Assembly: GCF_009730915.1 (NCBI RefSeq)
Contig: NC_052480.1
Location: 23,138,419-23,202,418, forward strand
Length of the DNA: 64,000 nt
Origin: Dioscorea cayenensis subsp. rotundata
Taxonomy: Eukaryota > Streptophyta > Magnoliopsida > Dioscoreales > Dioscoreaceae
Direction: 5' to 3'
Shown: piece after piece, positions 13,860 through 55,168 of the stretch
How positions within the stretch are numbered: the first letter of the stretch is position 1
How the letters are laid out: the number at the start of each line of letters is the position of its first letter
Made by a program: the position numbers and the translations under genes
The notes under the pieces: model-generated
Seen by the model: the letters and a program-made list of their open reading frames with translations, nothing else
Told to the model about the DNA's origin: nothing
Databases searched by the model: none

Positions 13860-14345
13860 TACTAATCGTTAAATTTACATTTTTACCCAAATTAATTAAA
13901 TTAAATTAATTAATTAAATTAATTAAGTAATTAATTGTATTAACTTAATTAATAAAATAATTAATTAACTTAATTAGCTCAATTAATTAAGTTAATAAAA
14001 TAATTAATTGTGTTAATTTAACTAATTAAATAATTAATTAACTTAATTAATTCAGTTAATAAAATAATTGATTAAATTAATTAATAAAATAAGTAATTAT
14101 GTTAACTTAATTAATTCAGTTAATAAAATAATTAATTAACTTAATTAATTAATTAAGTTAATAAAACAATTAATTGTTAACTTGATTAATTAAATAATCA
14201 ATTAAGTTAATTAATTTAATAAAATAATTGATTAATTGAATTAATAAAATAATTAATTAACTTAATTATTTAATTAACTTAATCAATTAAGTTAACAAAA
14301 TAATTATTTGTATTAATAAAATAATTAATTAATTTAATTAATTCT
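13860..14345. repeat. Low-complexity TTAATTAA tandem tract
   Basis: About 480 bp composed almost wholly of degenerate permutations of aattaattaagttaataaaat. Units are irregular, so it reads as a decayed AT minisatellite, not a clean microsatellite. Many TTAATTAA palindromes allow hairpins. Confidence 0.8.
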
Positions 14346-14397
14346 TAATTGTTATTTTCATTCCTATCTCCTTCCCATTACCCCCATTCTTATCATC

Positions 14398-30905: not shown

Positions 30906-31074
30906 TCAATGTCCCATGTTATCACCCATTTCTTGAGCTTGTTTAGGAGAGCTTGATGATGACTCCTTGTGTTTTCCCCACAGTACACAATAGAGCCCAA
31001 GTACCAGCATCACAGCTCCACCAACACTGTCAAACGATATTTAAAACTAATTAATAATGAGATTATTATGATTA

Positions 31075-31105
<31 letters not shown>

Positions 31106-32484
31106 CAAACTTGTATTTACCTTCCCCAATGAAGGATTTCATTCCAAAAAACAATGGAATAAACAACAGTAGCCAAGAATGTCAATGGAGAGAACACTGC
31201 AGTAAAGACAGCACCCTTACAATCCACACACCAAGTCATCAACCAAGAACAAACAGCAGTAGCAGCACCCTGTTTAACAAAAAGAAAATAAATAAAGACT
31301 AATAATAATAATAATAATAATAATAACTAACCATCAAATATTGATGCTCATTAACATAGACAAACAAGTTCATTACATACAGAGTAGACAGAAGCAAGCA
31401 ATCCAATGTTCCATCCCAACTTCCATGCTGATGGTTTCCTCTCAAATATCACAGTTATCAGTCCAGTCTGAATTATGCTACAAATACACTGTAAAAAGGT
31501 AAGCCGAAGCTCTGCAGGGTATCTGCGAACCAAAGGGCCCTGTTCGACATGCTCGATTATTAACTTATACATATTTCTTTCATATTATTAACTATAAGTC
31601 TATAATTATATTCTATATATAAGAAATGAAGGACCTGTAAAATGAGCCAAATGGACCAACAAGTATGAGCTAGAAGCATTAGTAGGCTGCCTTTCACCCA
31701 GTCTGCTCTTGAAATCACCTTCTCTGCATGAGATGTGGCTGTTTTTTGTATTTCATGGTGATTTATGAACTGCACTGCAGGACCTTTGTAGATTGCAAAT
31801 AAGAATGCTCCTACTAGACATAACAGAGTTCCCAGTAGCTTTGTTGCAGAAGAGAACTTGTGCTTCTTTTTTAGCTTCTCAATTCTGAAATTAACAGAAT
31901 CAATGAATTCATGGGTAATTATAGTTTTTGGTTTTTCTTAATTTCAAGTTGAAATATTTTCACCTTAGAATTAGAGCAAGCAGAAGAGTGATGGCAGGAA
32001 CTGCATTTGCTGAGGCTGCTGCAAATGTAGCTGAGGTGTATCTCAGTGAGAAGGTGTACAGAAAGGAGCACAATGTAATCCTAAGAAACAGCAGAAAAAA
32101 AACACAATAATAAGACTAGTTTTTTATTTGAAAAGAAATGAATTAATGTTGTTGGTGTTGTTAACATACCCACATAAAGAGATGATGAAGATCCTGAACA
32201 GAGGCAATGGAGGCAAACTCTTGTTCCTGGACATTAACAATAAGAAACTTAGTTATGATATATGGTTGTGAACTTGTAGATTATAGATATGAAGTTGATT
32301 ACCTTTCAAAGAAGAAGATGACTGGAATTAGAACAAGCGAAGCAAAAATTTGTCGGTAAAAGACGAATACAAAAGGGTTCATGCCTCCAGCAACAGCAGT
32401 CTTGGTGAACAATGTAGTGCCTGCGAACAGAATTCTAGCAAGTATCATTGCAAGGTATGGAATACATGGTTTATGAACATCCAT
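30906..32484 (-). CDS. WAT1-related (nodulin MtN21/EamA, UMAMIT-type) transporter
   Basis: Seven minus-strand exons, 32303-32484, 32170-32226, 31964-32080, 31635-31884, 31381-31539, 31121-31269 and 30906-31026, encode 344 aa with closed phases. Two EamA halves and about ten membrane helices can be followed. These include AMILARILFAGTTLFTKTAV with the NPFVFVFYRQIFASLVLIP segment, TSATFAAASANAVPAITLLL, KLLGTLLCLVGAFLFAIYKG, GSLLMLLAHTCWSIWLILQ, AVFTAVFSPLTFLATVVYSI and GGAVMLVLGLYCVLWGK. The tail is short and hydrophilic. Family members move amino acids, auxin or metabolites across the plasma membrane or tonoplast; the substrate here is unknown. A TA run lies in the intron near 31079-31104. A broken second copy lies just upstream of the start (33022-33337 and 53455-53549), so this locus was tandemly duplicated. 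Confidence 0.93.
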
Positions 32485-33021
32485 TATGAATTAGGTGTAC
32501 AGAGAGAGAGACAGAGATCTAGAGAGAAGTGTACAAACAACATTGATTGTAGCTTACAAAAGCTACATAAAGATGCCAGTGCTTGATGTTCTTTTCATGG
32601 ATATATTTTTCATTGATTTATTCATCTGATGATAAGCTTGTAAGGCTGAGTCAGAGACCAGTATATGCATAGATGACACTACTATGAGATGCAGGCATTG
32701 GCAGGTGAAAAATAAGAAAGGACAGGGAGGTTTCATCTTCTTTAATAAAGTAAATTAAACAATCAAACGGTGGTAGGCTAATGGCGATAGCTTTACTCCA
32801 GTAAAAAACCAATTTAATAGAAGCCTGCCTACTGTTCACTATTGAAAAATATATATTAAAATATCTCATTTAATTAAAAGAAAAGTTTATCTGTTTCTAC
32901 AAACTTGAGTTCTTTCTCAAATAAATAATTTCCATCTTTTTTCAGATGAGAATGAATAAAATTAGATTAATTAAAATAAAATATATCATCTGATTAACAG
33001 GTTACTTAGTGGACAAGCTCA
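32485..33021. other. Promoter side of the WAT1-related gene
   Basis: AT-rich upstream region holding the promoter and leader (GA run at about 32500-32520 on the plus strand). Beyond about 32900 it grades into the duplicated copy. No other gene seen. Confidence 0.45.
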
Positions 33022-33337
33022 CACACAGAGTACAAAGAAACAAACAGTCCAATGTTCCATCCCAGTTTTTATGAGGATGTCTTCCTCTCAGACAACACAA
33101 TGCAAGACTGTGAGTCTAAGTTCAGAAGGGTAACCTTGGAGCAGAGGACTATGTTATTATTATATATATACATATGTTTGTTTATTTGTTTGCTTGCTTG
33201 CATATATTGCATATCTTTGTTGGTTTTCTGTTGTGTCTAATGCCCCCGTTAGGCACAAACAACTTTGCTTCTCCATAAAGACTCTGTTTCCTTGGCAGCG
33301 TTGTAGTCCTGAAATATGTGCACATAAATGTGTATAT
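33022..33337 (-). pseudogene. Broken second copy of the WAT1-related gene, 3' part
   Basis: 33022-33150 aligns by eye with exon 5 of the intact neighbour and its donor side (shared AATGTTCCATCCCA and the following TTCCTCTCA), on the same strand, with many substitutions. 33240-33312 may be a further decayed piece. The copy stops at the Copia target site (TATAT, 33333-33337) and resumes beyond 53388. It cannot code. This is a tandem duplicate fossil of a host gene. Confidence 0.75.
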
Positions 33338-33539
33338 TGTTGAGAATATCAAAATAGCAACACCCAATGAAAGAAGTCAAAAGATAAGATCCGTAATCCA
33401 TGGATCTATGTTTTTTCTTGGAAATTGTAACTTGGAAATTATAACATTTGTCACTCTTTAAATATGATCAAGGTGTAATGTTTGATGTAGTGTAGAAATA
33501 AAAAACTTCTTCTTCCTTCATAAAACATCTCTTTCTTCA
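33338..33539 (+). repeat. 5' LTR of the first Copia
   Basis: Starts TGTTGAGAATATC and ends CA directly before the primer-binding site. It matches the 3' LTR almost base for base, apart from small length differences. Confidence 0.92.
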
Positions 33540-33552
33540 TGGTATCCGAGCC
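33540..33552 (+). other. Primer-binding site
   Basis: TGGTATCCGAGCC resembles the complement of the initiator methionine tRNA 3' end used by most plant Copia elements. Confidence 0.8.
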
Positions 33553-34644
33553 AAAGAAATAATGGAGAAAAATCCTGAATCTACATCTATTGTTATTCAA
33601 TCTGCTCAGCTTGATGGGGTGTTCAATGCTGGCATCATCCTTACTGAGACTAACTATGATGTTTGGTCTCAGATAATGAAAATGTACCTTACAGAAAGAG
33701 AAAAACTCTCATATGTTCGTAGCTGTAAAAAGCCATCTGATGAGTCTTCTAAAGAATACGAGAAGTGGTATGGTGAGAACCAAAAAGTGAAAAGATGGTT
33801 GCTCATATCTATGTCTCCTGAGATCATGAAGCGATATTTACGAATTCCTACTGCTTTTGAAATCTGGAATGCATTGTCAAAGGCCTTCAGTGATGGAAGT
33901 GATGAATTACAAGTTTTCACTCTAAACCAGAAGGCTTTCTCTACCAAGCAAGATGGAAGAACACTCTGTAGATTCTATGGAGAGTTAATCGAAATATTTC
34001 GAGAACTTGATCATAGAGATAAAGTGGTCATGAAGGATCCAGAAGATGTTGTAGTGTACAACAAATCTATTGAAAGATTAAGAGTACATATCTTTCTTGC
34101 TGGGCTAGATGAGACATTTGACCAAGTTCGTGGAGAAATTCTACGAAGAGATACAATCCCAGATTTGGAAGAATGTTACTCTCAAATTCGAAGAGAGGAG
34201 GCGCGGCAGAATGCTCTTTGCAAGAAGGTAAATTATTCTGAAACATCAGCTATGATAGCACGAAGGCAACCCAACCAAAAGCAGCAGCCTTATAGAAAGC
34301 CTATCGACAAATCATTACTCCAATGCACTCATTGTCGGAAAAAAGGGCATATGAAAGAACAATGCTTTGAGATTGTTGGATATCCTGACTGGTGGGAAAA
34401 ATAGAAAGGAAAACACTAAGCAAGGGTCAAAACACTACAAGAAAATTACTGTTTAAAAACAATATTTTCCGTTTCTAATCCGTTGCTAATTCAGTTTAAA
34501 AACGGATTAGAAACAGAATTTATCTGTTTCGAATACCTTTGTTTCTAATTTAAATAGAAACGGAACATTTTTCCCTTTTTAAATTTAGAAATAGATTAGA
34601 ATCGGAAAGCAATATGTTTCTAATTTTTGAAAAATTAAAACAGA

Positions 34645-34830
34645 GCCAACGACCATTTGGTCTATTGGCATAGAGTCTCTGCAGTAGGGGTGTTCGCTCA
34701 ACTGTCGAGCGTGACTCCCGAGTTCGATCCCCATCTCGCATGAGGTGAGGCAGCGGTTCGGGTGGTGAGCGTTGCTCCCACGTGCTCGTCGCCGGGTTCG
34801 TGACATTGTCGCCTTTCTCAAAAATTAAAA
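34645..34830 (+). mobile_element. SINE inserted in the CACTA element
   Basis: About 186 bp with a tRNA-related head (TGGTCTATTGGCA as a degenerate A box; GTTCGATCCC as B box) and an A-rich tail. Perfect 13-bp duplications AAATTAAAACAGA flank it at 34632-34644 and 34831-34843. GC content is far above the surroundings. Target-primed insertion explains all the features. Confidence 0.88.
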
Positions 34831-35134
34831 AAATTAAAACAGAATAGTGTGTTGCTAATTTGTTTCTAAATTATGTTGCAATTCCATTTCTGAATTTAAA
34901 AAGAGTTATAAAAATTAGAAACGGATTCCAAACAGAATATTTTTTGTTTTATTTTTGTTCTCCCATTAGAAACAATAGCTTTTTTGTTCCTAATCCATTT
35001 CTAAATTTATTTTAAATTAAAAAACAATATTCAAACAAATAAATCCGTTTCTAATCTGAATCTAACATTAAGTCAATAAAATAAAATAAAATAAAAATTA
35101 TATATATACATATGTATATATCTGCTAATCTAAA

Positions 35135-35420
35135 TCAATCCAATGAAAAAACAAATGAGTCATGAAACTTGCCTTCTGTTATTAGATAAAACAATTGCCT
35201 CTAAATTCTATATTTTTTTATGACGCCAGAAATAATAATTGCATGTATGAACTCAGTAAGATCACACACACACACACACGTATAAATGTTGACATGAATC
35301 AATCCAATGAAAAAACAAATGAGTCATGAAACTTGCCTTATGCTAGCAAGTAAAACAATTGCCTCTTAATTCTGCATTTTCAATAACACCAGACAAATAT
35401 TGACCACATGAATGAACTCT
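35135..35420. repeat. Direct duplication of about 125 bp
   Basis: Two copies begin with AATCAATCCAATGAAAAAAC (about 35135 and 35290) and continue similarly for more than 100 bases before diverging, inside the CACTA element. Likely a local duplication after capture. Confidence 0.7.
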
Positions 35421-36883
35421 TGGGATATTATTCCTTGATATTAAACTTGCCCATGACCAAGCCTTGAATTTTGGGCAAAAAATGAAATTGACACAGAATG
35501 GGCTCTTGTAGTTGGGTCACATGATCATCTGCACAAAAACAAGCTTTTTCGTATTATACGAATAAAAAATACAATGTGCACCAAACAAGGAAAATAAGAA
35601 AATGGCTCTATCCTCAACTCCTTGATGCTTTGCTATGCTGGATATAATGAACAGGATGATATAGTAGGTTATATCACCGACAACCTCATTGATATGTAAT
35701 GACAGGATAATAACTCAAATTGGTAAGTTGAGATATCCAATAAGTTCAAGAAACAAGAGTCACAGAAGCACAGATTGTATATAAAAAGATCAAATATGTT
35801 CTGCAGAACAGTAAAATTAAATGGATAACATGCCATATTAAAAGGTAGTGGTTCCTTACTTCATTTGGCATCTGCTGCACAATTGGTTCTGATATGTTGT
35901 TCATATAGAGGATGATATTTAGGTGGGACGAAGTCTTTGAACCTGCTCACAGCCACTATGATGTTAACATATTTAATAGTGTCCTAAACCAATCTTGAAA
36001 CTATAATTATAAGAAATGAAGATTTGAGAATCAAGTTTTTATAATTGAACGAGTAAATGATTGCCTAAGACCTCAGTGCACAAAAACCAGAAGTCTTGCA
36101 AGATACCAAAGTTTAAGATCAGATGGAAAAGCCAATGATCAGATATGAAAAAGAAAGGAACAGAATTAAAAAATGAAAAATGATGGAGAGAAAAACAATA
36201 AAATAAAATAAAAAGAAGAAGACCCTGTTGCACATTTCCCATATGGTTGTACATTTTATAATCTTGATTAGAGTATGAATGCCTCCCATAGTAATCATCT
36301 AAGCTTATATTTAAAATCAATAGCCGCAATTCTAGCATTCAGCATAACAAAAAACTTAATAATTAACTCAGGTTAAAATATCACCTGGATTAGGAAAGCA
36401 GCACCTCTGGAGTCCTCGTGGCCATGAGGTGCTGAAGTACAGGACTCATTATTAGTTATTGCTCTTGTCTGAAGAATGCTTCCAAACTATTTCAACATTG
36501 GATATCCCTGAAGAACCAGCTTGAGCATGTAGTGGTTTTCTTTCCTTGTCATAAGTTCTGACTTCTGCAGGTAAACAACAGCAATAGCAAGTTGGATGCT
36601 TTTTGTTCCATACATAGTGATTTTTCTTATTATTATTAAAAAAAAGGTGACAAACCACATGCTTTAATAGTTCAAGAATTTCTACTGACTCAATTTTCCT
36701 AGAATCAATTTTACTGTCATTATAATAAAAAAAATGCATCCGATGTTAAGAAAACAAAATCATGTGACTTTCTCAAGCATCCGATGCTTTTTGTTTATAT
36801 GTAACAAGAGGTTTGTATTTAGCATATTGCTTAAGATATCATCAATGGTCTCATGAATCAAATATACCTAAATTCGGTATGTA

Positions 36884-36994
36884 AACAAAAATATTTGCAC
36901 CATAATCATGACGGTGTCTAATAACCCGCCCAACAGCCTGATTCATAACCCTTGTAGCTTGCTGGACATACCACTCCTCCTCACCAGTCAGCAC
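36884..36994 (-). pseudogene. Captured exon of an RTEL1-type DNA helicase
   Basis: On the minus strand, after a TTTCACCAG acceptor, the frame reads [18 protein letters not shown] and then [19 protein letters not shown]. This is helicase motif VI of the XPD/RTEL1 superfamily 2 iron-sulfur helicases (plant RTEL1 has ...[16 protein letters not shown]...). Only this one exon is recognisable. The flanks do not continue the helicase. It sits in a non-autonomous CACTA, so it is best explained as transduplication from a host RTEL1 gene elsewhere. Confidence 0.85.
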
Positions 36995-38439
36995 CTGGTG
37001 AAACCATTAAAATTACTTAGTACAATAAACATCTCATCTTCAACAAAATAAATACTCTCAATTTCACGGTTTTCTATGAGTTAAAAGTAACATCAAAACT
37101 AATTTTGATCTTTTATGCTTCTCTTGGGAGATTCAGTAAAATTACAACGTTCTAGAATTTTGTCATTCCTCTCACAGTGACTCAAATTTGCATCTTATAT
37201 AATTACCTTAGAATGTCCTTTCTGGGATAGGGCATGCTGGTCCAAAGTAATCACATTTGAGACGAATTTGAAAGATAACAAGCACATTTAAAGGTTAAAA
37301 GTATGTGCCAAAGAAATATATCTAGCACTGTGAATTATATCCAGAAATCAAAAAGCACAAAAGAATATCTTATGAGCAGTGGCGAACAAGCAACATAAAT
37401 AGGATGCTTAGTGATTGTATTCTTGACTAAACGGTTTTTGTGAAAGAAATGACAATGTTTATGCCTTTTATTCTATCTTCCAGCATGATATTCTTCTGAT
37501 GAAGAAAGGATGATGTCACCTAAATTTGGGTTTGATGAAAAAAACATGGTAATGTTAGGATTTTCGACATAATTATACCATATATTTTTATAGCAGAAAC
37601 TTAATAAACATAAGCAAGACTACTGGTGAGCTAACATCATATTCACCATGTACTTACCATCTACAAGAAAGTAAACTTGCAAGTTATTATTATACAAGAC
37701 TGAATGAGAAGGGGTGAAGAATCTGGCAGAGATAGTTATTCTTATTCCAATAAAACAATTTGTCAATACTGAACTGTACCACAGAAGGCAGTATAGAAGA
37801 CATTACGCACCAGATCAGGCAAAGACCTTGAAAGCATGAGAAAAGAGGATGACTCGTTTAGGAAAAATAGTCTTTCTAAAGTTGTATTAAAATAAAATCT
37901 ACAACTCAATTCCTTATCAAAAACAATGTTTGAAATCAGACAATGATACAAATCCACACAACATATATATCACTGATCATTTTAACATCAGCTTCACTAA
38001 TTCTTTACATCTGTATCAATTATCCATCTTTGGATATAGTAAATCATAGCAGACAAACCACAAAAAAAAAAGACCTTGCAATAATAAAATTCAATCAAAA
38101 CAAAGTTGATCCATAAAGGCATGGTTGTCGACAAAGTTACTACCCTGCATCAGCAAGTTGTGTGAGACACAATTACAATCAACTGGGATGTACATGTATA
38201 TACTGCATCCGTTAAAAGAAATTAACAAGTGAGTCAACTAGTAAGCAAAAAGATTGGCAAGTCTTGAGAATCATGTTGGCGAGTTTTCAGTTACTAAACA
38301 TGTTAATAGCCAAGCGAAAGCAAGCTAATCTTGTATTCCTTCGTGAGAAAATAAAAATACAGTACATTAGCAACAAACATAGAATTAATCAAGGAGCTCT
38401 TTACATTCAATAGACAAAGAATAAGATGCAAGATAAGGG

Positions 38440-38794
38440 CAAAGTTGAAATCGGAGGCATGAATCGAGGTGTACCTCTAGTGATGGGGATTTTGGAGAAG
38501 AGTTTGGCAAAGTCGTTCTTAGCGATGCGGAGCTCGGCGTTCTCTTTGCGAAGGGCTTCAAGCTTGTCGGTGATGGGAAGCTCAAGGGATCAGCAATGGA
38601 AAGCCTCGATCGAGAAGAATCCTGCAAGGGATGTCATCGTCAGCGCAGGCCGTGGCGTCGTCGGAGCCGGCCGTGGCTTCGCCGGCAACGGTGACGCCAA
38701 GGAGGCGCTGAGGGAGAGGATCGCTGGGGTTGGAGCACGAGGTGGCCGGGTTTGATCTTAGGGTTGGGGATGAGGAAGAGGATCGTTTACTCAT
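38440..38794 (-). pseudogene. Captured GC-rich first-exon-like fragment, source unknown
   Basis: A GC-rich island inside the AT-rich CACTA. On the minus strand an ATG at 38794 opens MSKRSSSSSPTLRSNPATSC, then a Ser/Ala/Asp-rich stretch. In another frame a heptad-like segment (DKLEALRKENAELRIAKNDF) leads to a plausible donor (AG/GTACACC). The frame change between the two parts shows it is broken. It resembles the start of a host coiled-coil gene. I do not recognise which. Confidence 0.6.
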
Positions 38795-39339
38795 TTGCTC
38801 ATTTGTCTGCTTTAGTTATCATGCGAGTTTGATCTTTGGGTTGGGTTTGATCTTAAGTATTTTAATTATTTTTATTATTATAATATAATTAACTTTTAGT
38901 CCCTCTTCTTCTAAAAAACTTATCAGAACTACAACTATTTTTTCCCCTAATTTGAATTCTTTCTAAATGTTTTAATAAAATGTTAAGATTGTTAAAAACG
39001 GTTTGAATTCGATTTTAGCTGTACGTAACAAATTAGTTCATAAATTAATCAAAATAAATTGATTGATTTAGTTAAATTGATTAATTTTTATATTTTTACA
39101 AAAATATGTTCTGATTTATTAGTTCAATAAATAAAATATTAATTTAAGTAATATTTAATAAATTTAATTAAAATATTAATTCAATAAAAAAAATATTAAT
39201 TTAAGTAATATTTAATAAATTTGATTAAAATATTAATTCAATAAATAAAATATTAATTTAAATAATATTTAATAAATTTAAATACAATATTAATTCAAAA
39301 AATAAAATATTTATTTAAAAAATAATATTTATTAATTCT

Positions 39340-40085
39340 ATTAGAAACATATTAGAAACGGATATTTTTTTAATATTTAATAAATTTAAATATAATATTA
39401 ATTTTAAATCCGTTTTTAGTCCCTTTCTATTAGAAACAGATCAGAAACGGATATTTTCTAATATTTTCTAATATTTAGATAAAATATTAATATTTAGATC
39501 CGTTTCTAGTCCCTTTCTATTAAAAATGGATTAAAAACGGATATTTTCTAATATTTAATAATATTTAAATAAAATATTAATTTAGAATCTGTTTCTAGTC
39601 CCTTTTTATTAGAAACGGATTAGAAACGGATATTTTCTAATATTTTCTAATATTTAAATAAACTATTAATTTTTAGATCCATTTCTAGTCCTCTTCTATT
39701 AGAAACGGATTAGGAACGGATATTTTCTAATATTAATAATATTTAAATAAAATATTATTTTTTAAGATCCGTTTCTAGTCCCTTTCTATTAGAAACGGAT
39801 TAGAAACGGATATTTTTCTGATATTTAATAATATTTAAATAAAATATTAATTTTTAGATCCGTTTCTAATCCCTTTCTATTAGAAACGGATTAGAAACGG
39901 ATATTTTCTAATATTTAAATGAAATATTAATTTTTAGATCCGTTTCTAGTCCCTTTCGATTAGAAACGGATTAAAAAAAGATATTTTCAAATATTTAATA
40001 ATATTTAAATAAAATATTAATATTTAGATCCGTTTCTAGTCCTTTTCTATTAGAAACGGATTAGGAACGGATATTTTCAAATATT
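39340..40085. repeat. Subterminal tandem repeats of the CACTA element
   Basis: About eight units, period roughly 84-96 bp. Each contains a GATCCGTTTCTAGTCCCTTTC-like half closely followed by its partial inverse TTAGAAACGGATTAGAAACGG and an AT-rich spacer. CACTA elements carry such subterminal motifs as transposase binding sites. Confidence 0.85.
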
Positions 40086-40725
40086 TAAATAAATAATATT
40101 CTAGATTGCCCGTTTGTAAGCCGTTGTTATTTAGATTATATTTAAAACGATTGTTTGTCCGTTGCTAATCGGTTGCAGGTAGAAACGAAATAAATTTCGT
40201 TTGTAATATTCCATTTTTAAATAGTAACTTTCTTGTAGTGAAAGCTGCTATGGTTGAATCCACATCCATCACTGACTCTTCATCAAAAGTTGTAGACACT
40301 GCCAATTTAGGTAAAGCTCTTAAAAATCTTGCACTTATTAGTAATAGTACAAGGATAATTGATTCCGGGGCAACTAATCATATGACTTTTGATTCTCGAC
40401 AAGTTTCACAATTAAAACCATGTTCACAAAAACATGTTTCCACTACAAATGGAACCTCAACCTTAGTTATTGGGAAAGGATCTTCACTGCTCATAGATAA
40501 ATTAAATTTAGACTATGTTTTAGTTGTTCCATCTTTAAATTATAATCTTCTATCTGTGTCTCAAATAACCACTTCCTTATCATGTGTTGTAATTTTTTGG
40601 CCTGATCATTGTGTGTTTAAGGACATCCAAACAAAGCAAACGATTGGTTATGGTATTAGAAGAGGGAACTTGTATTATGTGGAAATGACGCCAACAAACA
40701 CTGAGAAGCCAAATCCAGCTTTACT

Positions 40726-43319
40726 TGTAATGTCCAGGGTTGACACTTTGATCGTGTGGACTTGGACTGCTGATTTTTTTTGTTTAGGAGGTGGAGCCCA
40801 CCACTGGCATTTTCTTTTCCCCATGCCTCTGCCTCAGCTTTCCCGTGACCCTGTTTGGTTTCCCGTGAGTGGCGAGTCTTGTCAAGCAGCGTTGGTGGAG
40901 CTCTTAAAGGGAGAGCAGCCTCTTCTCCTTGCTCTTCTCCTTGCTCTTCTCCTTTTCCTTTGGAGCTTGCTTCTCTTTGGCTGAAGGCAAGAGCTTGGGC
41001 TTGGAGGAGATTCCTTTCACTGGCTAGATTAAAGGTAGGAAGCTGGTTTTGTGTTTTAGTTGGATCTGGTAAGGCTTAATGCCTTGACCTTGGTTGCTTG
41101 TTCATTCTCCTTGGTTTGAGAACTTTGATCTCTGTGTGATGTAGCATGCTACCTTTCTCATGCTTTGATTATGATGATCTTGAACCTATGTTTGTATATG
41201 TATTCAGTTGGATAACATTAGCCTCATGTGTTTGTTTTCTGAAGATTCATATATTTGCATATTCATATATATATACCCAAAGGCCAAAGCATGCATGCAT
41301 GATTTAAATTGAGTAGATTTTTATATATGTTCATGCATATTCATATGGCTTTAATTTGAGATACAAGCTGTCATTAGAGCTTAAACCTTTTCTTTAATAT
41401 TTGGTTTAATCATTATGTTAATACCTTGCCCCTATGTGTTTATATTAATGCTTGTAGAATTAAACCTGTAAGTTGCCTCTCAACCTTAATGGTTAGATAT
41501 ATATGTATATATATATATATATGGGTATTTATTTTTAAATACATATATTCATATGTTGCAAGCATGCATGGCAACCTGTAAACATGTTTATTTATTTATT
41601 TATTTTGTTAGTTTAGTTCACTTGTATTCATTTGTATATAAGTTCCATTATGCATATGAATATCCATATACATGTATGTAGTCATGCAAAGCATGCTAAA
41701 TGGTTGGTTATAATCATATCCTTAGTTAATCTCTAACTATATTTATTGCTAGTAAGCATGAGATCTGGATTTATATCGCATACATCCTTGTAGACTTGGG
41801 ATCTTGCAAGCATACTTTCATGAGCTAATTTATTTAGATTTTATAGATGTATTTATGCAACATGCACTTGATGATATCATTAATTAGACTTGAAGCTTGG
41901 TTTAGTCTTCAGTTATTGAATTCTATTAATCATTTGATGCTTAGTGGAAGGTTGGCTGAGACTTCATTAATTAGAGTTGACTTTTTAAATGCTTGTGTTA
42001 TTTAAGGATATAGTTCTGTTTATGCCTATTCTATTGGTAGCAATTAAATGTTAAAAACATGGCATTCTCTTATCCTGCATGATAGTTATTTATATAAGTG
42101 TTGTGTTAAATTGTGATTGAAATGTCCAGATGATTATTTGGCCTAGATGCTCTGAGTTTTATTATCATGTTGTATTTGTTTAGTGAATCCTCATTGTTTA
42201 AACTGGGTGTCTAGATGCTTAATCTTTTATTTTAGTTGGTGATTTCAACTCAAGGTTGGGGTTTGATTTATTGTTAGTTTTTCCTCTGGGGCTTAGCTGT
42301 AGATTGGGCCCTGCCCAAGAATTTATTTCTGAGTGTAGTTTATTTTTTTTTGGGTTAGATTACTGTAGCGAGCTTTAGTTCGCAAGACTTGGTGAACCCG
42401 ACTCTGTTGCTTGGAGCCAGGTAGGCTCTCGCACCCGAATTTTTTTCATATTTCTGATAATTATTATGTATTTAAGTTATTTCATTATTTTTTTTGGTAA
42501 TTTTAGTAATTATTTATTTACTTACTTGTCATTTATTTATTTATTTATTTAAATCCAGTATTTCCTCTGTCTGTAATTCGTATTTCCGCGTTTTTGGTAC
42601 ATCTCCATTTCCTGGCTCGCCCAGCTAGGAGGAGTAAGTCCTAGCCATGTGCACATGTTTCTGTAGTAGCGCTACCTCTCGACTGCGGTCGAAGATCCGG
42701 CTTCGGTTGTTGATATTCTGTTCTGTTCTGTTCTGTTCCGACTTCACAGTCGATGATCCAGCCTCACGTTGTTGATTTCTGTTATTAGCCAGGGTGATGT
42801 ACATGACTGAATCTGCGTGTTTTCCATATTTTTGGATTATTTCTGTATTCTGTGTGTTTTTTGTATTCTGTATGAAGTATGATATAGTATTCTGCAATAT
42901 CTGCTTTATCTGTTGTTTCTGCGACCCTACTGGGCCCTTGTGGCTCATACACTCTGTGAACTCTGTTCTCGCAGGAGAAGATCAAGTCTAGGATCGGGGG
43001 GTGTCTGGGAGTGTATTTTCCGCTGTTATCAGTATCTCTGTAGTACACTTTTCTGTGAGTGTAAGGCTTGTATTCTGACCGTATTTATGTTTTGTAAACT
43101 GTTGGGTTCGTCTTTGTGTTCTGTAGGGCTGCTAAAGCCCGTACTTGTAATATTTCAGTTTCTAGTATCCTATTTGTGCTTCTGTATTACTGTTTATATT
43201 CTGCTTGTTAGGGTTGACTCTAACCAAGTCAAATCTGAGGCCTGGCACCCAGTGGGACCCAGTCCCAGTGGATGCGGCCGATCTGTCTGCAGGACCGGCT
43301 GTGGGGCTAGGGCGTGACA
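40726..43319 (+). mobile_element. Solo long LTR (Gypsy-type likely) inside the Copia
   Basis: A 2,594-bp insertion begins TGTAATGTCC, ends GGGCGTGACA and is flanked by TTACT (40721-40725 and 43320-43324). It splits the Copia between protease and integrase. No coding domain is present, so it reads as a solo LTR left by recombination. Its 3' part matches, in reverse, the element at 48094-51057 (shared TAGGACTTACTCCTCC region and LTR end). Confidence 0.82.
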
Positions 43320-46300
43320 TTACTTGCAAACAGTTCCATGGAAAAAAAGAAATTTGAAATTTGGTTATGGTATAGACGCCTGGGACATGTTTCATTTGGT
43401 TACTTAAAAAGGTTGTTTCCTAGTTTGTTTCTGGAAATTGATATTTGGAACTTTAAGTGTGATGTTTGTGAACTTTCAAAAAGTCATCGGACTACTTTCC
43501 CACTGTCCTTGAATAAAAATCTAGTTCCTTTCATGATAGTACATTATGATGTTTGGGGACCATCTATAGTTCCCACTATTAGAGGAGCACACTGGTTTGT
43601 TACATTTATTGATAATTGTAGTAGAATGACATGGATTTGTTTAATGAAGTCAAAAGATGAAGTAAACCCTTTATTTCAAAAATTTCACAAGATGGTGATG
43701 TGACAATTTCACACACAAATTCAAGTTCTACACACCCGATAATGGAGGTGAGTACATGAGCACAAAAATTCAACATTTTCTAGAATCACAAGGAATTGTC
43801 CATCAAACCACATGTGTTGGCACACCCCAACAAAATGTAGTTGTTGAGCGGAAAAATAGACATTTGCTTATTGGGGAGAAGCGCTTACATCCGCAGCATA
43901 TGTAATTAATCGAACACCTTCTAGCTCTCTTGAATTCAAAAACCCTTTCCAGGTTTTAAATAAAACAATCAAGTCACCGAATGTGCCCAATTTACCCCCA
44001 CATGTATTTGGTTGTGTAGCCTTTGTCCATCTGCAATGACAAGACAAATTATCTCCTCAGGCATTACGTTGTGTATTTGTAGGGTATGCCTTAAATAAAA
44101 AGGGTACCGATGTTATCATCCTCCAAGCAAGAAGTTATACATCACCATGGATGTTGTCTTCCATGAAGACATCATGTATTATCCATCAAAGTCTGAATTT
44201 CAGGGGGAGTACAATGAAGAGGAAATTCACACTCTTACATATTCTCCACTCCAAGGAGATCAATTCTCTATTGAGGTCACCAACCTTCAAGATACTGAAA
44301 CATGTGAAGATGCCTCTGAGAAACAAAACATTCAAGAAATTGACACAAATACATCAACAATAGAGCATGAGACTCTTGAAGAAACACATGAAGAAATACC
44401 TAATCAATCGTTTGCAGAGGATGTGCCTATCATAAATCCAAGTCCAATTAAAAGAATACTTCCCCAACGACAAACTAGAGGTATCCCTAAACCGACATAT
44501 GAACCTAGCCTCTCTAGTAGAGTTAGATATCCTATGAGTCATTTTGTTTCTAACCATCGCTTGTCAGAATCAAATCAGTCATTTGTAAATCAATTATCTA
44601 TTGTATCTATTCCTAACAATGTACAGAAAGCTCTAAATAATTCAAAGTGGAAGGCTGCTATGAATGAAGAAATGAGATCTAGTCAAAAAAAAATCAAACA
44701 TGGGAAATAGTTGATCTTCCATCAGGAAAGAAGCCAGTGGGTTGTCGGTGGATCAATACTGTAAAGTACAAGGTAGATGGCTCCATTGAAAGATACAAAG
44801 CAAGACTCGTAGCTAAAGGTTTCACCTAAACCTCTGGGATAGATTATACAGATACATTCGCACCGGTATCAAAAATCAATATTGTTCGTATTTTGCTATC
44901 TTTAGCAGCAAACTTGGATTGGCCAGTGCAACAGTTTGATGTAAAAAATGCATTTCTCCATGGAGACCTAATTGAAGAAATTTACATGGATCTACCTCCA
45001 GGATGTAGTGGACCAGAACGACTCAATCAAAAGGTATGCAAATTGAAAAAAATCATTGTATGGGTTGAAACAATCTCCAAGAGCATGGTTTGGAAGATTT
45101 ACTATGGCTATGAAGTTTTTTGGCTACAACCAAAGCAATTCAGATAATACCTTATTCATTAATAGAAGACAAGATAAAGTTACTGCTCTTATTATGTATG
45201 TGGATGACATGATAGTTACAGGCAATGATGAGGGAGAAAGGGAAGTCCTTCAGAAGTATTTGTCAACAGAGTTTGAGATGAAGGATTTGGGGCCTTTAAA
45301 ATATTTTCTTGGACTTGAGGTTTCTCGGTCCAAAGAAGGTATCTTCTTATCCCAAAGGAAATATACCTTAGATTTATTGCAAGAAACTGGAATGGTAACT
45401 TGCCACTAGAAGAAGGATGGAACCGTTGTATTAGCACAAGCCAAGTTTCAGTAGATAAAGGAAAATATCAAAGGCTCATTGGAAGATTGATGTACCTATC
45501 TCACACTAGACAAGATCTTGTTTATGCATTGAGTCTTGTAAGTCAATTCATGCATAATCCTGGAGAACAACATATGAAAGTTGTTATGCGAATCTTAAGA
45601 TATCTGAAGTCGAGCCCTGGCAAAGGAATTTTATTCTCAAAAAATAAAAATGCAATAATATAGCAGTTTATACTGATGCTGATTGGGCTGGATCAATTAA
45701 TGATAGATGCTCTACTTCAGGCTATTTTACCTTTGTGGGAGAAAATCTTATCACATGGACAAGCAAGAAGCAACATGTTGTCGTCCGTTCAAGTGTTGAA
45801 GCAGAATATCGAGGCATGGCTCTTGGATGTGAAGGATTATGGGCAAGCTTTATATTAAGAGATTTGGGCTATCCACCACAACAACCAATAAAATTGTATT
45901 GTGATAACAAAGCTGCACGAGATTGTGGGATCGAAAATACGCGTCTGGCATCATGAAGAAGACACCAGATGATACATCGAAGCACAAATATCATATTTGT
46001 TTTGTGTGGGTTCTTTCATTCCTAATAGGGGCAAGCCTCTATTATTAATTACCCCAGATAGTATCTTGGGAACCTCCGATTAAGGGCAAAAATACAAGTA
46101 AAAGCGAAAAGATTTGCGAATTTATTATATAAACCTATTTATTACATCACTTATATATATATATATATATATTTATTTATATTTTTTATCACTGCCGCCG
46201 CCTGTGCCTTATCACTGCATTGCCTGCCTGATAGCCATCTTAAAATAAATATATCACATAACAATTTTTGTTGCCGTCTTGACATGAATAAGTCACCATT

Positions 46301-48093
46301 GCATGTGTCTTATCATCGCGTTGCAATATATATCTCATTGCTGCCTTGATATATATATATATATATATATATCATTTTTATCTTCCATATATTTTCTAAA
46401 ATATTTGCCATTCCCTTGAATTGAACTTTCTTGTTATTTCTTCGGATCGAGTAATTTTGTCGTCGCTCTAAAATGAATGTCAGATGTTGGTATGAGGCAA
46501 CGCCCTAATACCAAAAAGGATAACAGCATGTCATCGATATTTGATATATGTCCAAAGCCTCTTTTTTTTATATTGTTGCACATCCCATAATCTTCTTCGT
46601 AGTTCGTATCATTGTAGTCACCATCTTTTTCTTGTTTTATCAGCATCACCACCACTCTTTTCATTAAGCATTTCGAACTAATCATTGGAATCCTTACTCA
46701 GGTTTAGAAACATTTCATATATATGTATATATTAAATATTGCCTCAAGGACAATGAAGCCAAACTCACCACCGTTGTTAACCATTCAATTAAGCCTCTTG
46801 CTTGAACTCATGAGATGTTCTGATCATGTACGGTTTTTTTTTTATACAAAACAACCATGCATGCTATTGCATATTACCCATTCTTTTGAATTTTTTTTTA
46901 TTGTTAATGCATATATGCTTCTCATTTCCTTTTCTTTTTTTCTTTTTTTTTAAATGATGGTTCTATGCATATTTCTCATTTTTTTTATATTTTTTTTTTG
47001 TTTTTATTATTTTTATGTATGTTATTCGTTCCAGGTGCATTTTTCATTATTTTTTTACTTTATATATATATATATATATATTTTGCAAGTGTCTCTCTCA
47101 TGGTGGGCCATTCACCATTGAATTTATGACAAACAAATTAATGATCCCCCACTTATTGAGTTTTGCAGGTTCTACTTAAAAAGAGTAGCCATTACGTACT
47201 TCCCATGCAATATTTATATTTTATTTATTATACTTTTTTTTTTTCATCGTGAATTTGCATTCATGCCCTTTTTTAGAACCATCACCAACTTCTTTATCAA
47301 GCAAGAAAACTCACCAAAAAAAAAAACATCATATCACACTCCTGACAATATTCGCAACAATAGATGAGGGGGAAATTATAGTATTCTGTAGAGTATGAAA
47401 GTTGCAAACTTAGGATCCCGCATGTATGGTATCATGCAAGATAGAGAAAAAGGTGAAGTTCTTTTGGAGACGAAGCACGCATCAGAGAACGCCTATGCAT
47501 ATGTCTAATCGAACTCCGATTAAAACTTCTTGTAGAAATTTACTTTGTTACCTCCATTGCTTCCTCTCGAGCATTCTATTGATGACAACGTAAGCAGCGC
47601 CATTTCCGAGGATTGGATCCTCACATGAATCTTCAGAGAATTTGCAAGTGATGATACGACCTCTGCGGCCACTAATCCCGGATGATATCCGACCCTGTAT
47701 GTCTCCTCCAAACAGGGAGTTCGAACATCTCTTACATGCATCACATGGGGTAACGAAGGCATACTTCTCCGCTCATTTCTTTTGCAGTCTAGCCTTCAAG
47801 TATTGGGCATCCATCGCCAGGAAACACTTTGGTAATCATCGTTCTAGACCTACACCCATTCGAGCTCGAGAGAATATCTCATTTTACTGAACGATGCAGT
47901 CCCGCATGTAAACAACGAGAGAGAAGGAGAGAATAACGATAAGCTTTGATCGACGATCCGACATGGTTTTCTTCTCAAAGTTCTCATGCCCGAGTCGCCC
48001 ATATTAATATAACACAGTGCATCAAGAATATGGTGGCAAATGCCCGTAGTTCCAATCAAACAGCTCATGTGGTCTACTTATCGACTATACTAT

Positions 48094-51057
48094 TATCACG
48101 CCCACCCTCAAAGCCGGGCTCCTCGACAGATCGGTCACGATCCAATCTGGGCCGGGCCCTCACGGGTGCAAGGCCTCAGATTTGACCTGGTCAGAGTCAA
48201 CCCTAACAAGAAGAACAGGAAATAATATAAAATGGTACAGAAATACAACACAGACTAACAGATATGAGAATCCAAGGTATAAATACAGGTTATAAAAAAA
48301 TTTACAAGAAAACGATAACCCTAATGGATCCATCCTAGCACTGGCTGATCAACAAGGTCTTAAGCACAACCTAAGAGTCGAGGCACCGAAAAGATAGAAG
48401 AAGAGAGGTCGAGTAACCTCGGTTACTCGATGAGTGGGAGCAAAAACATGAGAAAACTCAAAATACCAAAGTAGATACTGAAATTGGTTATCGAAAACAA
48501 TCCCAAACATAATACTTTCCATACGTAATGGCAAATTAGCGTAATAATAGCTGAACGGAAATACGGAGAATGCTCGTAATCACGTAGATACTCGTAAATG
48601 CCGAAAAATACGCAAAATGTATATGTACATCTCCCCGACTAATAACGAAATCAACAACACGAGGTCGGATCTTCGATCGTGAAGCTCGAATGAGCGTAAT
48701 GCAGTAATATCAACACCGTAGTCGGGATCTTCGATCAGCAATGGGGTAGCGCTACTACAAAAAACATGTGCACATGGCTAGGACTTACTCCTCCTAGTTG
48801 GGCGAGCCAGAAATGGAGATGTACTAAAACCGCAGAGATACAAAACACAGACAAAGGAAATACCGAATAATTAATGCAAAAACAAAATAAACAAATAAAT
48901 AATTATACACCAAAAACACAGAGTTCGAGTTCAGAAATTGCAAATTCAGAAGTTCAAATAAACGCAGAAATACTAATAAATTCCAAGTTTTCAATCCGGG
49001 GCAAATAACTAAATAAAGAGAGTAGGTTATATAAAAGTAAGCAAAATGATATAATAAATCAGCCACACAAAAACATCATAGTCAAAAATACGTAGTATTC
49101 ATGAATTTCCCGTGACACTCACACGTAATGTAAAATACGTAACTTCGTAATCCCACATTAGGGAAAAATAACTCAAGAAACAAAAAAATTATGCACAAAA
49201 ATTTACCAAATGAATAAATCATCAAATAAAAACCAATCACCCCTGGAATTACACTCTTAAGGTCTCGCCATAATATCACTTCTAACCTGCTCCATTTCAC
49301 AACACATAACTCCAAGATCATACTAACAATTGCAAAGATATTTTGCCGAATGAAACTCGGGACCATACTGAACATTTTCCTTGTCAAATGCTTCCCAAAG
49401 TTTTGTCCCCAGAAGTGAGAAAAAATCAAGCTAAACCTTAAGATTCCCTCGTAGTACATCATCTTGCACAAGTCTTTAATAAATCAAAACTTCTAATCTA
49501 TAAATCCAATCCGCACCCTTTGGTTTTCCCCATCATTTCGATTTTTATCAATAATGTATCTTATCATAATTGTTCATCTAAAGCAAGTTATCATTTCAAA
49601 GGCATAAACCTAGTTTTCCCTTCCAATATTAAAACAACCCTTGAACATCAACCAACATAAGCTATATAAAAGCAATTACCCCAATTTTGAATTAACATTA
49701 GGTCAAGGTCACCTCTAATATCCAAGATGCAATAACACCCAAGCAACTCACCAACTTTTTCAATTCTTTACCGCCATAATTGTCATGTCATCTCACCCTA
49801 AAAATGTCATCAATCCTAGCTTCATACCACCCCATTCCTCTAGATTAAAAAGCAACTCACATTATTATTTTCATTCTTGAACATTCATGCTTTTAGTTCT
49901 CATCACATAAGTTTTTTTATCAAAATCTTACATTCTATTATGAGCATACATCTCCCCCTTTCTCTAACTCCTTCAGTATCATCCCGACATATCATCAAAG
50001 CATTTCCAATCTCTTCCATTCCCAAGCAAAATAATTACATAAACATAACTCCCTCACATAAACAAATTTCCCTTGCCAACATACATATACTTATAATCTA
50101 TAATGTAAAAATGTCCATCTTCTCATAATTCTTACATTCTAGTATTTTTAACACAAACCATGATATGTATAAAAAAACACATTCCTTACCTCTTGATTCC
50201 TAACCAAATTCCACAAGATATACATATTATCACCCACACATGAGATCAATCAAATGCATTTAAGAATTTCAACTCATCTTTAGTAACAAACAAGGGATCC
50301 ACATTTATTATTCCTTCATATGAAGGAGTGCTCATACAAACTAACAACTAAGTCCATCAATACCATTGAAGCCATTACAAAATTAAATCACACAATTCTC
50401 ACAATTATGTCCCCAAATATTTGTATTCAACACTAGGAGGCAATTAGTCAAACACCTTATGTGCATCACCCAAATTCCATTCCATGGACTCTAGCATAAC
50501 TCAAAATATGATTTCTTTACACACTAATCTACACTTGCGTAATTCACCATAAATATAACTCCCAAGGCCTTACATTGTCATGGACCCAATTAACAACAAG
50601 TATGATATTGTAGCAAACAAATGCCAAGTTTCCAATCAACATCATGCCAAAACAACACCCAAACATGTAAATAATTTACAAGAACCAAAATAAATCAAGA
50701 ATGATTCGGTTAGCCCACTCACCTTGCCATCTTCTCTTCTCATCCTCTCTACTTCCATTAATCTAGGGAAAATAAGAGAGAAAACAAAAAGAACACAAAC
50801 CCTAAGTTTATACTAAGGTTATCAACAAGAACACAAAATGAAACTTAATGGAAACAAGAATTACTTACCTATCTTTAACCATTAAAAGCAAGAAGAGGAG
50901 AAGGACATGGCTAGGGTTTCCAACAAGCATGAATGGGAAATGGAAGAGAGGGGCTGAAATTTTTAGAAGGGAAGAAAAGTATTTTCGGGCTGCTACAGTA
51001 ACCGTGCTACAGTGTTGGCTTTATAAAGTTGCTACAGTAACCGGCTGGGTTATAACA
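48094..51057 (-). mobile_element. Solo long LTR, reverse orientation, nested
   Basis: On the minus strand it begins TGTTATAACCCAGCCGG and ends GGGTGGGCGTGATA, with ACTAT on both sides (48089-48093 and 51058-51062). It shares the GGTTGACTCT...GTCAAATCTGAGGCC end and the ACATGTGCACATGG region with the LTR at 40726-43319, but it is clearly diverged from it. No coding region seen. The right boundary is chosen by the duplication and is less secure than the left. Confidence 0.65.
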
Positions 51058-51485
51058 ACTATAGCACGAGTAATCCGATCCAGACTGGTTCCGGCCTCAT
51101 CGAGCAGACGCCATGGCGAATTCAAGCTTTGAATTCGAGGGCTTTTTGATAGCGAAAAGTAGAGAGAGAGAGTGAGAGAAAGAGAGAGGAGTGAGAATAC
51201 ATGCATCTACATGCATGCATGTTTTTATATTCTTCTTATCATCATTTTTTTTATTCTTTTTCAAATCTTCTCTACTTTGTTTTTTGGCCGCCACCCCCCT
51301 TGTCCATCGTCTTCTTCTCTGAGGCTTTTAGTTTTTTTTCCTCTATGTCCTCTCCTTCTTTTTTCAGTTGGTGGAGATTATGGTGACGGCGATAATGGCC
51401 GGCAGTGATGGCAACAGCAGCGATGAGCAACACCGATGAGCAGCAGCAATAGTGATGAACGGCAACAGCGGGCAATAGTAACATG

Positions 51486-51683
51486 AAGCTTTAGTCATGG
51501 TTGGCGGCATTATTTCAGCCCCTCAACCACAACGGCAACCTCCTAGACAGGCTGTGACGGCGAGCAGCGGCGAACAAGTAATGGCGATGAGCGGCGACAG
51601 CAGCAATGATAACGGGAAGCTTCAGTCATGGTTGGCGGCATTATTTCAGCCATTCAACCATGACGGCGACTCCTTTGGCAGGC
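51486..51683. repeat. Direct repeat of about 66 bp
   Basis: Two copies share TCATGGTTGGCGGCATTATT and the following TTCAGCC...CAACCA (about 51486-51553 and 51618-51683), inside a GC-richer CGGCAACAGC-type stretch of the LTR-type insertion. Confidence 0.7.
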
Positions 51684-53196
51684 AACAGCGGCAACAGACC
51701 GGCGGGCGATCTCCTTTTATATATATATATATTATACGAATAAGCAAGAAAGAGAAGAGAACCTTTTTTTAATCCTTCTCCCTCTATAATTTTTTTCTCG
51801 CTAAATTTTTTTTTAAAACTCTCCCCTCCTTCTTCTTCCTTTTAAAACCCTCTCATCCTTATCATAATCTCTTAAATCTCCACGCAAGATCACAACGAGC
51901 AGATCAGATTTAAATTTAAATTTAAATTTAATAATATTTTTTATATTTTATATTTTTTAATTAATTTTTTTAATTTAATTTATTTTAATTAATTAATTAA
52001 TTATTATTATTTATTTTATTTTATTTTATTTTTTATTTTATTTTATTATTTTTTTATTTATTTTTATTTATTATTTATTTATATTTTTTATTATTATTAT
52101 CTTTTTTTCCTTTTTTTATTTTTATAGTATTATCTCTTTTTTTTATATTTACATTTTTTTTTATTTCAAAATTCAATTTTTTTTTTTATTCATTTTTTTT
52201 TAGTTGGTCCTTTTTTTCGCCAATAACTGAATAGATAGGATTTAATTTATCATTATTATTATATTTTTTTCGTCATATGTTTATTTATATATATAATTTT
52301 TTTATATGTTTATAGATATATATATTCTTAATTTCAAATTTCAAATTTTTCTTTTTTTAATTCGCGCCATCCTACCCCGTATCATAACCTCCTAACTAAA
52401 TTAGACGAAAATGATAAGATTCAATTAAATTTTAATTAATTTTAATATATTTTTTTAAAAAATTATTTTTTTTTAATATATATTTTTTTATTAACTTAAT
52501 TTATTTATTATTAATTTATTTATTTTATTTTATTAAATAAAAATCTAATCTGCCTCGAGATATGTGTTTGGGCGCTTAGGAATTTGCATTTTCTCAAATC
52601 ACCTCGAGATCCGTTCTCATGCCTCATAAAATTTAGGATTGCCTCGAGATGTGTGTTTTGGCTATCCTAAGATTTGAGATTGCCTCGAGATATGTTCTCA
52701 AGGGTAATTTTGTAATTTTTTCATTTTTGCCTCGAGATATGTTCTCAAGGGCAATTTTGTAATTTTTTTCATTTTGTATTTATGCCTCGGAATTTGCATC
52801 CTAGTCCAAGACAATCAAATAATCAATTAAGATTAAGATTAGGACATTTAAATTTTAATTTTAAATATATCTACGATTAGGATATATTAGAATTTAAATT
52901 GGAATTTGGTTTCCATTAGGACATCGAATTTTATTAGGACATGCGTTATATTATTTATATATAAACAGAGATATTGCTCATAACCCTGTTCAACATGATC
53001 GAACAAAACATGTTGAGGTAGGTAGGTTCTTCATGCATCAAGCAGAAGCTTCACGACAAAAATGTTGAAATGCCTAACATTCGGTCAGACGATCAACTGG
53101 CAGATATCTTAACAAAAGCTGTCTCTAGTCGTGTATTTACAAAATTCTTAGACAAGCTGGGCATGCAGGATATCTATGCACCAACTTGAGGGGGAG

Positions 53197-53383
53197 TGTT
53201 GAGAATATCAAAATAGCAACACCCAATGAAAGAAGTCAAAGATAAGATCCGTAATCCATGGATCTATGTTTTTTCTTGGAAATTGTAACATTTGTCACTC
53301 TTTAAATATGATCAAGGTGTAATGTTTGATGTAGTGTAGAAATAAAAAACTTCTTCTTCCTTCATAAAACATCTCTTTCTGCA
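53197..53383 (+). repeat. 3' LTR of the first Copia
   Basis: Follows the purine tract TTGAGGGGGAG, starts TGTTGAGAATATC and ends TTTCTGCA, then the TATAT duplication. It is nearly identical to the 5' LTR. Confidence 0.92.
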
Positions 53384-53388
53384 TATAT

Positions 53389-53549
53389 ATATATATATAT
53401 ATAGATTGAACGAATGATATAAATAAAAGGAATTATAGTGTCAAGTTGCAGTATGCTAACATAAGTAGCAGAGCAAGTACAACAGTGATGACAAGAAGCT
53501 GCATTTGTGGTGGCTAATGCAAATGTAAAGCAGATGTGTATGTCAGTGA
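53389..53549 (-). pseudogene. Broken second copy of the WAT1-related gene, continued
   Basis: 53455-53549 aligns by eye with exon 3 of the intact gene (shared AGAGCAAG, GTGATG, CTGCATTTG, GCAAATGTA, GTGTAT, TCAGTGA in order), same strand. It lies beyond the Copia, in the order expected if the Copia landed within the duplicate. It is cut at 53549 by the next transposon end. Non-functional. Confidence 0.75.
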
Positions 53550-54530: not shown

Positions 54531-55168
54531 TCATAGCCTCCTATTCTTTTTCTTTATGGTCGCACATACTTGTAACTTGTGATAAGGAAATGCATCATCA
54601 GGAACAAAGAGAAAAGTTTTGGGATAAACACCCTTCCATTCACAAGTCATTGATCCAGATGATGTCAACTCAATATAACTTGGATGGTTGTAAACTGAAA
54701 GTTTATATGTAAACTCATAATCTTCAGCTGCAGGACAAATGCCAATAACTGGGAGTGCAATCCCTTCAGCTAAATATCTATTAATTAGGAGGAACAGATG
54801 ATTATCAGGAGAGATAAGAATGTCAAATTCTTGATCAGTAACACGTACATCAAAGCAGGATTCATAGCTGAATAATTGAACTGCAGTTTTTTATGGTTGT
54901 TTGCAACATGCTGATAAAGACTTGTCATGCAACCTTTAAATGAACAAAGAGGGCAAAAGCATTGTGCATAAATGCATGACTTCTGGTGGGATGCTCTGTC
55001 TAAGTAGGTCACAGTTGCATCACATCCAGCATTTAAGCAACTTATTTCCATTGATTCAATAATTCTTTCTAATGTCAAACAGCAAATAAGACCATTGATT
55101 TGAGAACATGATGGACATTTGCCATAAAGATTGACACATCATTTAGAGCATATCACATGACCATGACA
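54531..55168 (-). pseudogene. SINA-like E3 ubiquitin ligase, broken fragment
   Basis: The minus strand reads, after a CACCCAG acceptor at 55168, the end of a RING (CHGHVICSK...YGKCPSC). The SIAH zinc-finger region follows (CLNAGCDATVTYLDRASHQK, CIYAQCFCPLCSFKG, LYQHVANNH), then the C-terminal SINA/TRAF-like part (FLLINRYLAEGIALPVIGIC, CEWKGVYPKTFLFVPDDAF), ending at a stop at 54531. The RING has one in-frame stop near 55146, and a frameshift lies between the zinc finger and the C-terminal domain near 54855. No first exon with the RING start was found. SINA proteins bind E2 enzymes and targets for ubiquitination; this copy should not. Its place next to CACTA repeats suggests capture. Confidence 0.82.

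Follow-up and report, generated by a model that had tools for sequence, protein, structure and literature searches.

Plant LTR retrotransposons are commonly found as elements within elements, with solo LTRs common among them, and a nested element may appear older than the element hosting it, for which gene conversion has been proposed (PMC7251063). Gene-carrying CACTA transposons are also already in print as Pack-CACTA or Pack-TYPE elements (PMC8903248), and the LARD family Mtr77 of Medicago has an LTR of 2,191 bp and an element length of 4,668 bp, with the interior given as ∼200 bp (PMC2533021); these descriptions come from parts of the three papers. A literature search returned no paper on three or more of the topics nested transposable elements, insertion order, CACTA, and solo LTR. 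The locus described here lies in a 64-kb window (the whole stretch of DNA analyzed) on contig C10, and the genome searched comprises 584.2 Mb in 2,249 contigs. Elements in elements and solo LTRs make it similar to the reported plant nests. In contrast to those described in the consulted part of PMC7251063, its guests are mixed, consisting of a CACTA, a SINE-like element, and three single LTRs.

All six boundaries and duplications proposed in an initial annotation were recomputed from the sequence and hold as stated, which bears out a nest defined by duplications of TATAT (Copia), AAA (CACTA), TTACT, GAGAT, and ACTAT (LTR insertions) and by the 13-bp duplication of the SINE-like element, AAATTAAAACAGA, with copies at 34632 and 34831 (Table 1). 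The four levels originally assigned to this nest are one too many: the deepest chains hold three elements, namely the Copia, a 4.1-kb solo LTR, and a 2.96-kb solo LTR, or the Copia, the CACTA, and the SINE-like element. At this base composition, the chance of a match at one fixed boundary is ∼0.0015 for 5 bp and 0.02 for 3 bp. The weak points among the duplications are the right TATAT, which falls within a (TA)n run, and AAA, which is just 3 bp long. For the three LTR insertions, the ends are further pinned down by genomic copies starting or stopping at the same bases.

Table 1 Features of the nest and of the adjacent WAT1-related sequences (window positions)
Feature	Position	Strand	Evidence
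WAT1-related (EamA) transporter gene, apparently intact	30909..32484	-	345-aa spliced reading, exons by eye; Pfam EamA E 3e-28
WAT1 relic exon left of Copia	33021..33099	-	78% over 79 bp to exon 31375-31453, E 2e-14; tblastn 33098-33027, E 2e-4
Copia retrotransposon including all insertions	33338..53383	+	Ends and TSD TATAT; Pfam domains in pieces
Copia 5' LTR	33338..33539	+	186/187 aligned bases equal to 3' LTR; 14-bp and 1-bp gaps
Copia gag piece	33540..34432	+	Retrotran_gag_2 E 5e-13
CACTA element with RTEL1-like gene piece	34433..40240	+	TSD AAA; terminal inverted repeat 25/27; related element on C19
SINE-like element within CACTA	34645..34830	+	186 bp; A-box-like and B-box-like motifs, A-rich end, 13-bp TSD; empty site in C19 CACTA
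RTEL1-like helicase gene segment in CACTA, exon and intron	35098..37891	-	91-96% to pieces of C26:772087-778226; shorter than donor stretch
Copia pol piece after CACTA	40241..40725	+	Pol_BBD E 2e-14
2,594-bp insertion, probably solo LTR	40726..43319	+	TSD TTACT; ends common to other genomic copies; without own terminal repeats
Copia pol piece, from gag-pre-integrase past reverse transcriptase	43320..45923	+	gag_pre-integrs, SH3_retrovirus, RVT_2; stops and frame changes, frames read by eye
7,044-bp insertion, 4,075-bp solo LTR interrupted by inner LTR	45924..52967	+	TSD GAGAT; end-sharing copies, four copy pairs 13-17 kb apart
Inner solo LTR, 2,964 bp	48094..51057	-	TSD ACTAT; 8 other copies base 1 to 2961-2962; empty site C2:4727225/4727226
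Copia coding region 3' end	52968..53196	+	Alignment to C20 relative; sequence
Copia 3' LTR	53197..53383	+	LTR comparison
WAT1 relic exon right of Copia	53441..53549	-	76% over 109 bp to 31944-32049 (earlier exon), E 9e-16

As first annotated, an apparently intact WAT1 (EamA) gene stands next to the nest. Exon relics of a second copy are present on both sides of the Copia, with E values that refer to a small search space, and no further, earlier exons of the relic were found within the 64-kb window. The two relics derive from different exons, so the Copia splits a tandem duplicate of this gene that has decayed, confirming the claim that the WAT1-related gene was duplicated before the Copia arrived. 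From 53550, directly abutting the right relic (which ends at 53549), lies another left end of CACTA type, CACTACACAAAAAAAGTG, with subterminal repeats; an exact-pattern search of the window revealed no right end, and SINA-type zinc-finger gene fragments (54788-55138; Pfam Sina_ZnF E 1e-8) lie beyond it. Near the WAT1 gene, the window also contains a calreticulin-family gene piece on the minus strand (27341-28513; Pfam E 3e-141). Elsewhere in the window are a dense block of self-similar repeats in both orientations (13889-14357) and another Copia-type element (60085-62285), with gag (60085-60663) and integrase core (61800-62285) in separate open pieces.

The 7-kb insertion had been read as an LTR-type element holding another LTR, and its nesting and ends stand, with the correction that host and guest are both solo LTRs. 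As a complete element the 7-kb insertion was ruled out, as it has no terminal direct repeats and copy pairs elsewhere are 13–17 kb apart. In each of the LTR-insertion searches (2.6-kb, 4.1-kb arms, and inner) the best 40 candidates were scored, such that the counts that follow are lower bounds. Among the other matches listed, 30 of 74 start at the first base of the 4.1-kb left arm (one of the 74 being the window reversed) and 21 of 99 stop at the last base of the right arm. Four pairs of left ends lie on the same strand 13–17 kb apart, one member starting at base 3; since this spacing is like that of LTR pairs of large elements, the 4.1-kb insertion is taken as one LTR, the solo LTR of a large LTR retrotransposon. 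The 2.6-kb insertion is probably a solo LTR as well. Its last base is shared as a stop by 36 of the 52 other matches listed and its first base as a start by six, its nearest kin among the matches listed is 89% identical, and self-comparison revealed no terminal repeats of its own. Three matches of 82–85% on C5 lie in one orientation ∼7.4 kb apart, a spacing like that of LTRs, and the insertion is partly alike to the 2.96-kb LTR.

For the 4.1-kb and 2.96-kb insertions alike, one LTR with its TSD and no interior is present in the nest, and two copies flanking an interior are found elsewhere. Eight of the 73 other matches listed for the inner LTR span base 1 to 2961–2962, at 91–95% identity. Copies of this family lie 227–228 bp apart on C19 (C19:22067140-22067500) and C20 (C20:22806170-22806520), the latter contig carrying three ∼2.9-kb LTRs in tandem with two ∼228-bp interiors. 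In the two of three fetched intervals that were read, the interior opens with GATTAAAGTGGTATCAGAGC, which presumably holds a methionine-tRNA-type primer site as judged by its motif, and closes with a purine tract ahead of the following LTR. A search with this interior returned at least 40 matches: the query itself, 13 covering more than 100 bases, and 26 covering only the last ∼42. By its sequence organization, the family appears to be a non-autonomous element, its LTRs being long and its interior minimal. This arrangement is reminiscent of Mtr77 as described in part of PMC2533021, from which it differs in its LTRs of ∼2.9 kb and interior of ∼228 bp.

The CACTA guest has CACTA termini, inverted repeats matching at 25 of 27 terminal bases, and a 3-bp TSD. 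Approximately 2.8 kb of its sequence resembles pieces of a gene on C26 at 91–96%, and this gene, the source of the captured piece, contains an open exon that belongs to a helicase of the RTEL1/FANCJ kind. The reading of window positions 36854-37006 matched Helicase_C_2 (E 5e-10) and a solved FANCJ chain (E 3.5e-6). RTEL1 is the name we presume for the captured piece, while the searches themselves support the helicase family. No CACTA ends were present at C26 among the 122 matches listed (best 40 of 1,176 candidates), and the nearest kin of the CACTA listed from these same 40 candidates are 82–91% identical over parts. The same helicase piece is found in a related CACTA on C19. Like the Pack-CACTA elements in the part of PMC8903248 drawn on here, the guest thus carries a host gene piece between CACTA ends with a donor-like gene elsewhere; in contrast to them, the RTEL1-like piece is common to at least two members, those on C10 and C19.

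The element within the CACTA has features of a tRNA-derived SINE, with Pol III A and B boxes, an A-rich end, and a long (13-bp) TSD; the A-box-like and B-box-like motifs were judged against what we take to be the consensus. Rfam gave no match to the SINE region, ARAGORN detected no tRNA gene in the window, and in 204,868 bases of fetched loci the window's own copy was the sole match to the element.

Two empty sites were observed directly. The C19 CACTA, without the SINE-like element, reads through its site with the duplicated motif present once and differing at one base, and at C2:4727226/4727225 the arms of a 4.1-kb LTR adjoin exactly at a single ACTAT, the empty site of the inner LTR. Relatives of the Copia on C20 and C12 were compared at the remaining sites. 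The C20 relative aligns over the 4.1-kb LTR site with no gap at the junction, the C12 relative giving a spurious match only, and both cross the 2.6-kb LTR site with 2–3-bp gaps nearby; a convincing empty site for the CACTA was present in neither. By nesting, the WAT1 relic precedes the Copia, the Copia precedes the CACTA, the 2.6-kb LTR, and the 4.1-kb LTR, the CACTA precedes the SINE-like element, and the 4.1-kb LTR precedes the inner LTR. The order of events initially said to be completely readable from the duplications is thus a partial order, as the relative order of the CACTA, the 2.6-kb LTR, and the 4.1-kb LTR is not readable from them. It is extremely unlikely that any part of the nest arose from repeats being joined in assembly: the guests are repeats, and some breaks in the Copia coding sequence are short indels in single-base runs, but matching duplications bound every guest, which a false join would not make, and the two sites are read straight through in copies without the guest.

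The host Copia has direct repeats of the form TG...CA and a 5-bp TSD, the right copy of which lies in the TA run. Retrotran_gag_2, Pol_BBD, gag_pre-integrs, SH3_retrovirus, and RVT_2 were detected by Pfam in the expected order in separate pieces, with the integrase core falling within a broken stretch; two later open pieces were scanned as well, and the one covering the RNase H stretch was without a Pfam match. An open frame is retained in the first pol piece and in gag up to near its end. Approximately nine frame changes and three in-frame stops were counted over the 4,148 bases of coding sequence, an approximate figure obtained by eye from three-frame translations piece by piece.

Two substitution rates per site and year, 6.5e-9 and 1.3e-8, were used for the LTR clock. 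One difference in 187 sites gives point ages of 0.4 and 0.2 My, respectively, with one-sided 95% upper limits of 2.0 and 1.0 My. At the point age, three in-frame stops would be unusual (P 0.014). The near-identical LTRs seemed at first to clash sharply with the ruined coding region; this conflict mostly dissolves, as a single age of ∼1.1 or 0.55 My (interval 0.3–2.6 or 0.2–1.3 My) is compatible with the LTR difference as well as with the stops (P 0.25 and 0.15), on the presumption of a frame intact at insertion and zero sequencing errors. The Copia may be older than its LTRs suggest if gene conversion between them reset the clock, in which case the lesions and the distant kin of the guests would be the truer guides. 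The number of frame changes and the improbability of three stops at the point age favor this possibility, as does a report that about a quarter of nested elements in 15 plant genomes have LTRs more diverged than those of the host (given in the part of PMC7251063 used here). We consider it unlikely nonetheless, given that a single age accommodates both counts and that the LTRs retain 14-bp and 1-bp gap differences and thus are not fully homogenized.

Searches for relatives bear on the same question. The LTR and gag query returned eight matches in the genome, two of them its own and the rest at 67–82% (seven of seven candidates scored), gag matches elsewhere reaching at most 70% and LTR-only matches 71–82%. 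With pol, at least 43 matches were obtained, one its own and the rest at 65–75%, and no kin above 75% identity was present among the matches listed (best 40 of 349 candidates). Among the matches listed there are thus no gag kin above 70% and no pol kin above 75%, which is odd for a recent insertion, and for the guests, too, the nearest kin among the matches listed are rather remote (89%, 95%, and 86–91% for the guest LTRs). Direct repeats that are 92.9% alike form both ends of the matching stretch in the C20 relative and are probably its LTRs. A contig collection of bacteria and archaea only yielded no relative of the gag protein. One alternative is that a Copia already carrying defects inserted recently, from a parent now lost, unassembled, or residing in another species; near-identical LTRs, ∼12 lesions, and no close copy among the assembly matches listed are consistent with this, but decay after insertion within the upper age limit also explains the lesions, and gag and the first pol piece are open, making such an arrival rather improbable. 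Because the LTRs are almost identical yet the nearest listed kin are at ∼70–75% in gag and pol, we also considered a recent arrival whose parent is missing from this genome, for example by horizontal transfer or introgression, which is very unlikely. The description of the Copia as young therefore stands as regards LTR divergence (one in 187) but is loosely supported in view of ∼12 lesions and of gag and pol kin that do not exceed 75% among the matches listed.

The observations at this locus very probably reflect the following history. A WAT1-related transporter gene would have been duplicated in tandem, with subsequent decay of one copy, and the Copia would have inserted into the relic within the last 1–2 million years, as judged by its LTRs. 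A CACTA carrying an RTEL1-like helicase piece and two long-LTR retrotransposons would later have entered the Copia; the CACTA in turn would have received the SINE-like element, and one of the guests a further LTR retrotransposon; beyond what nesting fixes, this time order is the presumed one. We infer that the guest LTR retrotransposons were then cut down to solo LTRs via recombination between their own two LTRs. As the guest LTR insertions are single LTRs, none has an LTR clock of its own, and the usefulness for dating activity originally seen in the nest is limited, its only clock being one 187-bp LTR pair with a single substitution and a wide interval. The case shows the weakness of such a short LTR clock for dating. 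The locus is a well-preserved, ordinary instance of plant transposon nesting and a clean example of a well-known pattern. It provides a worked example rather than a new mechanism, in which a nesting order, two empty sites from the same genome, a gene relic, and a helicase-carrying transposon are found together.
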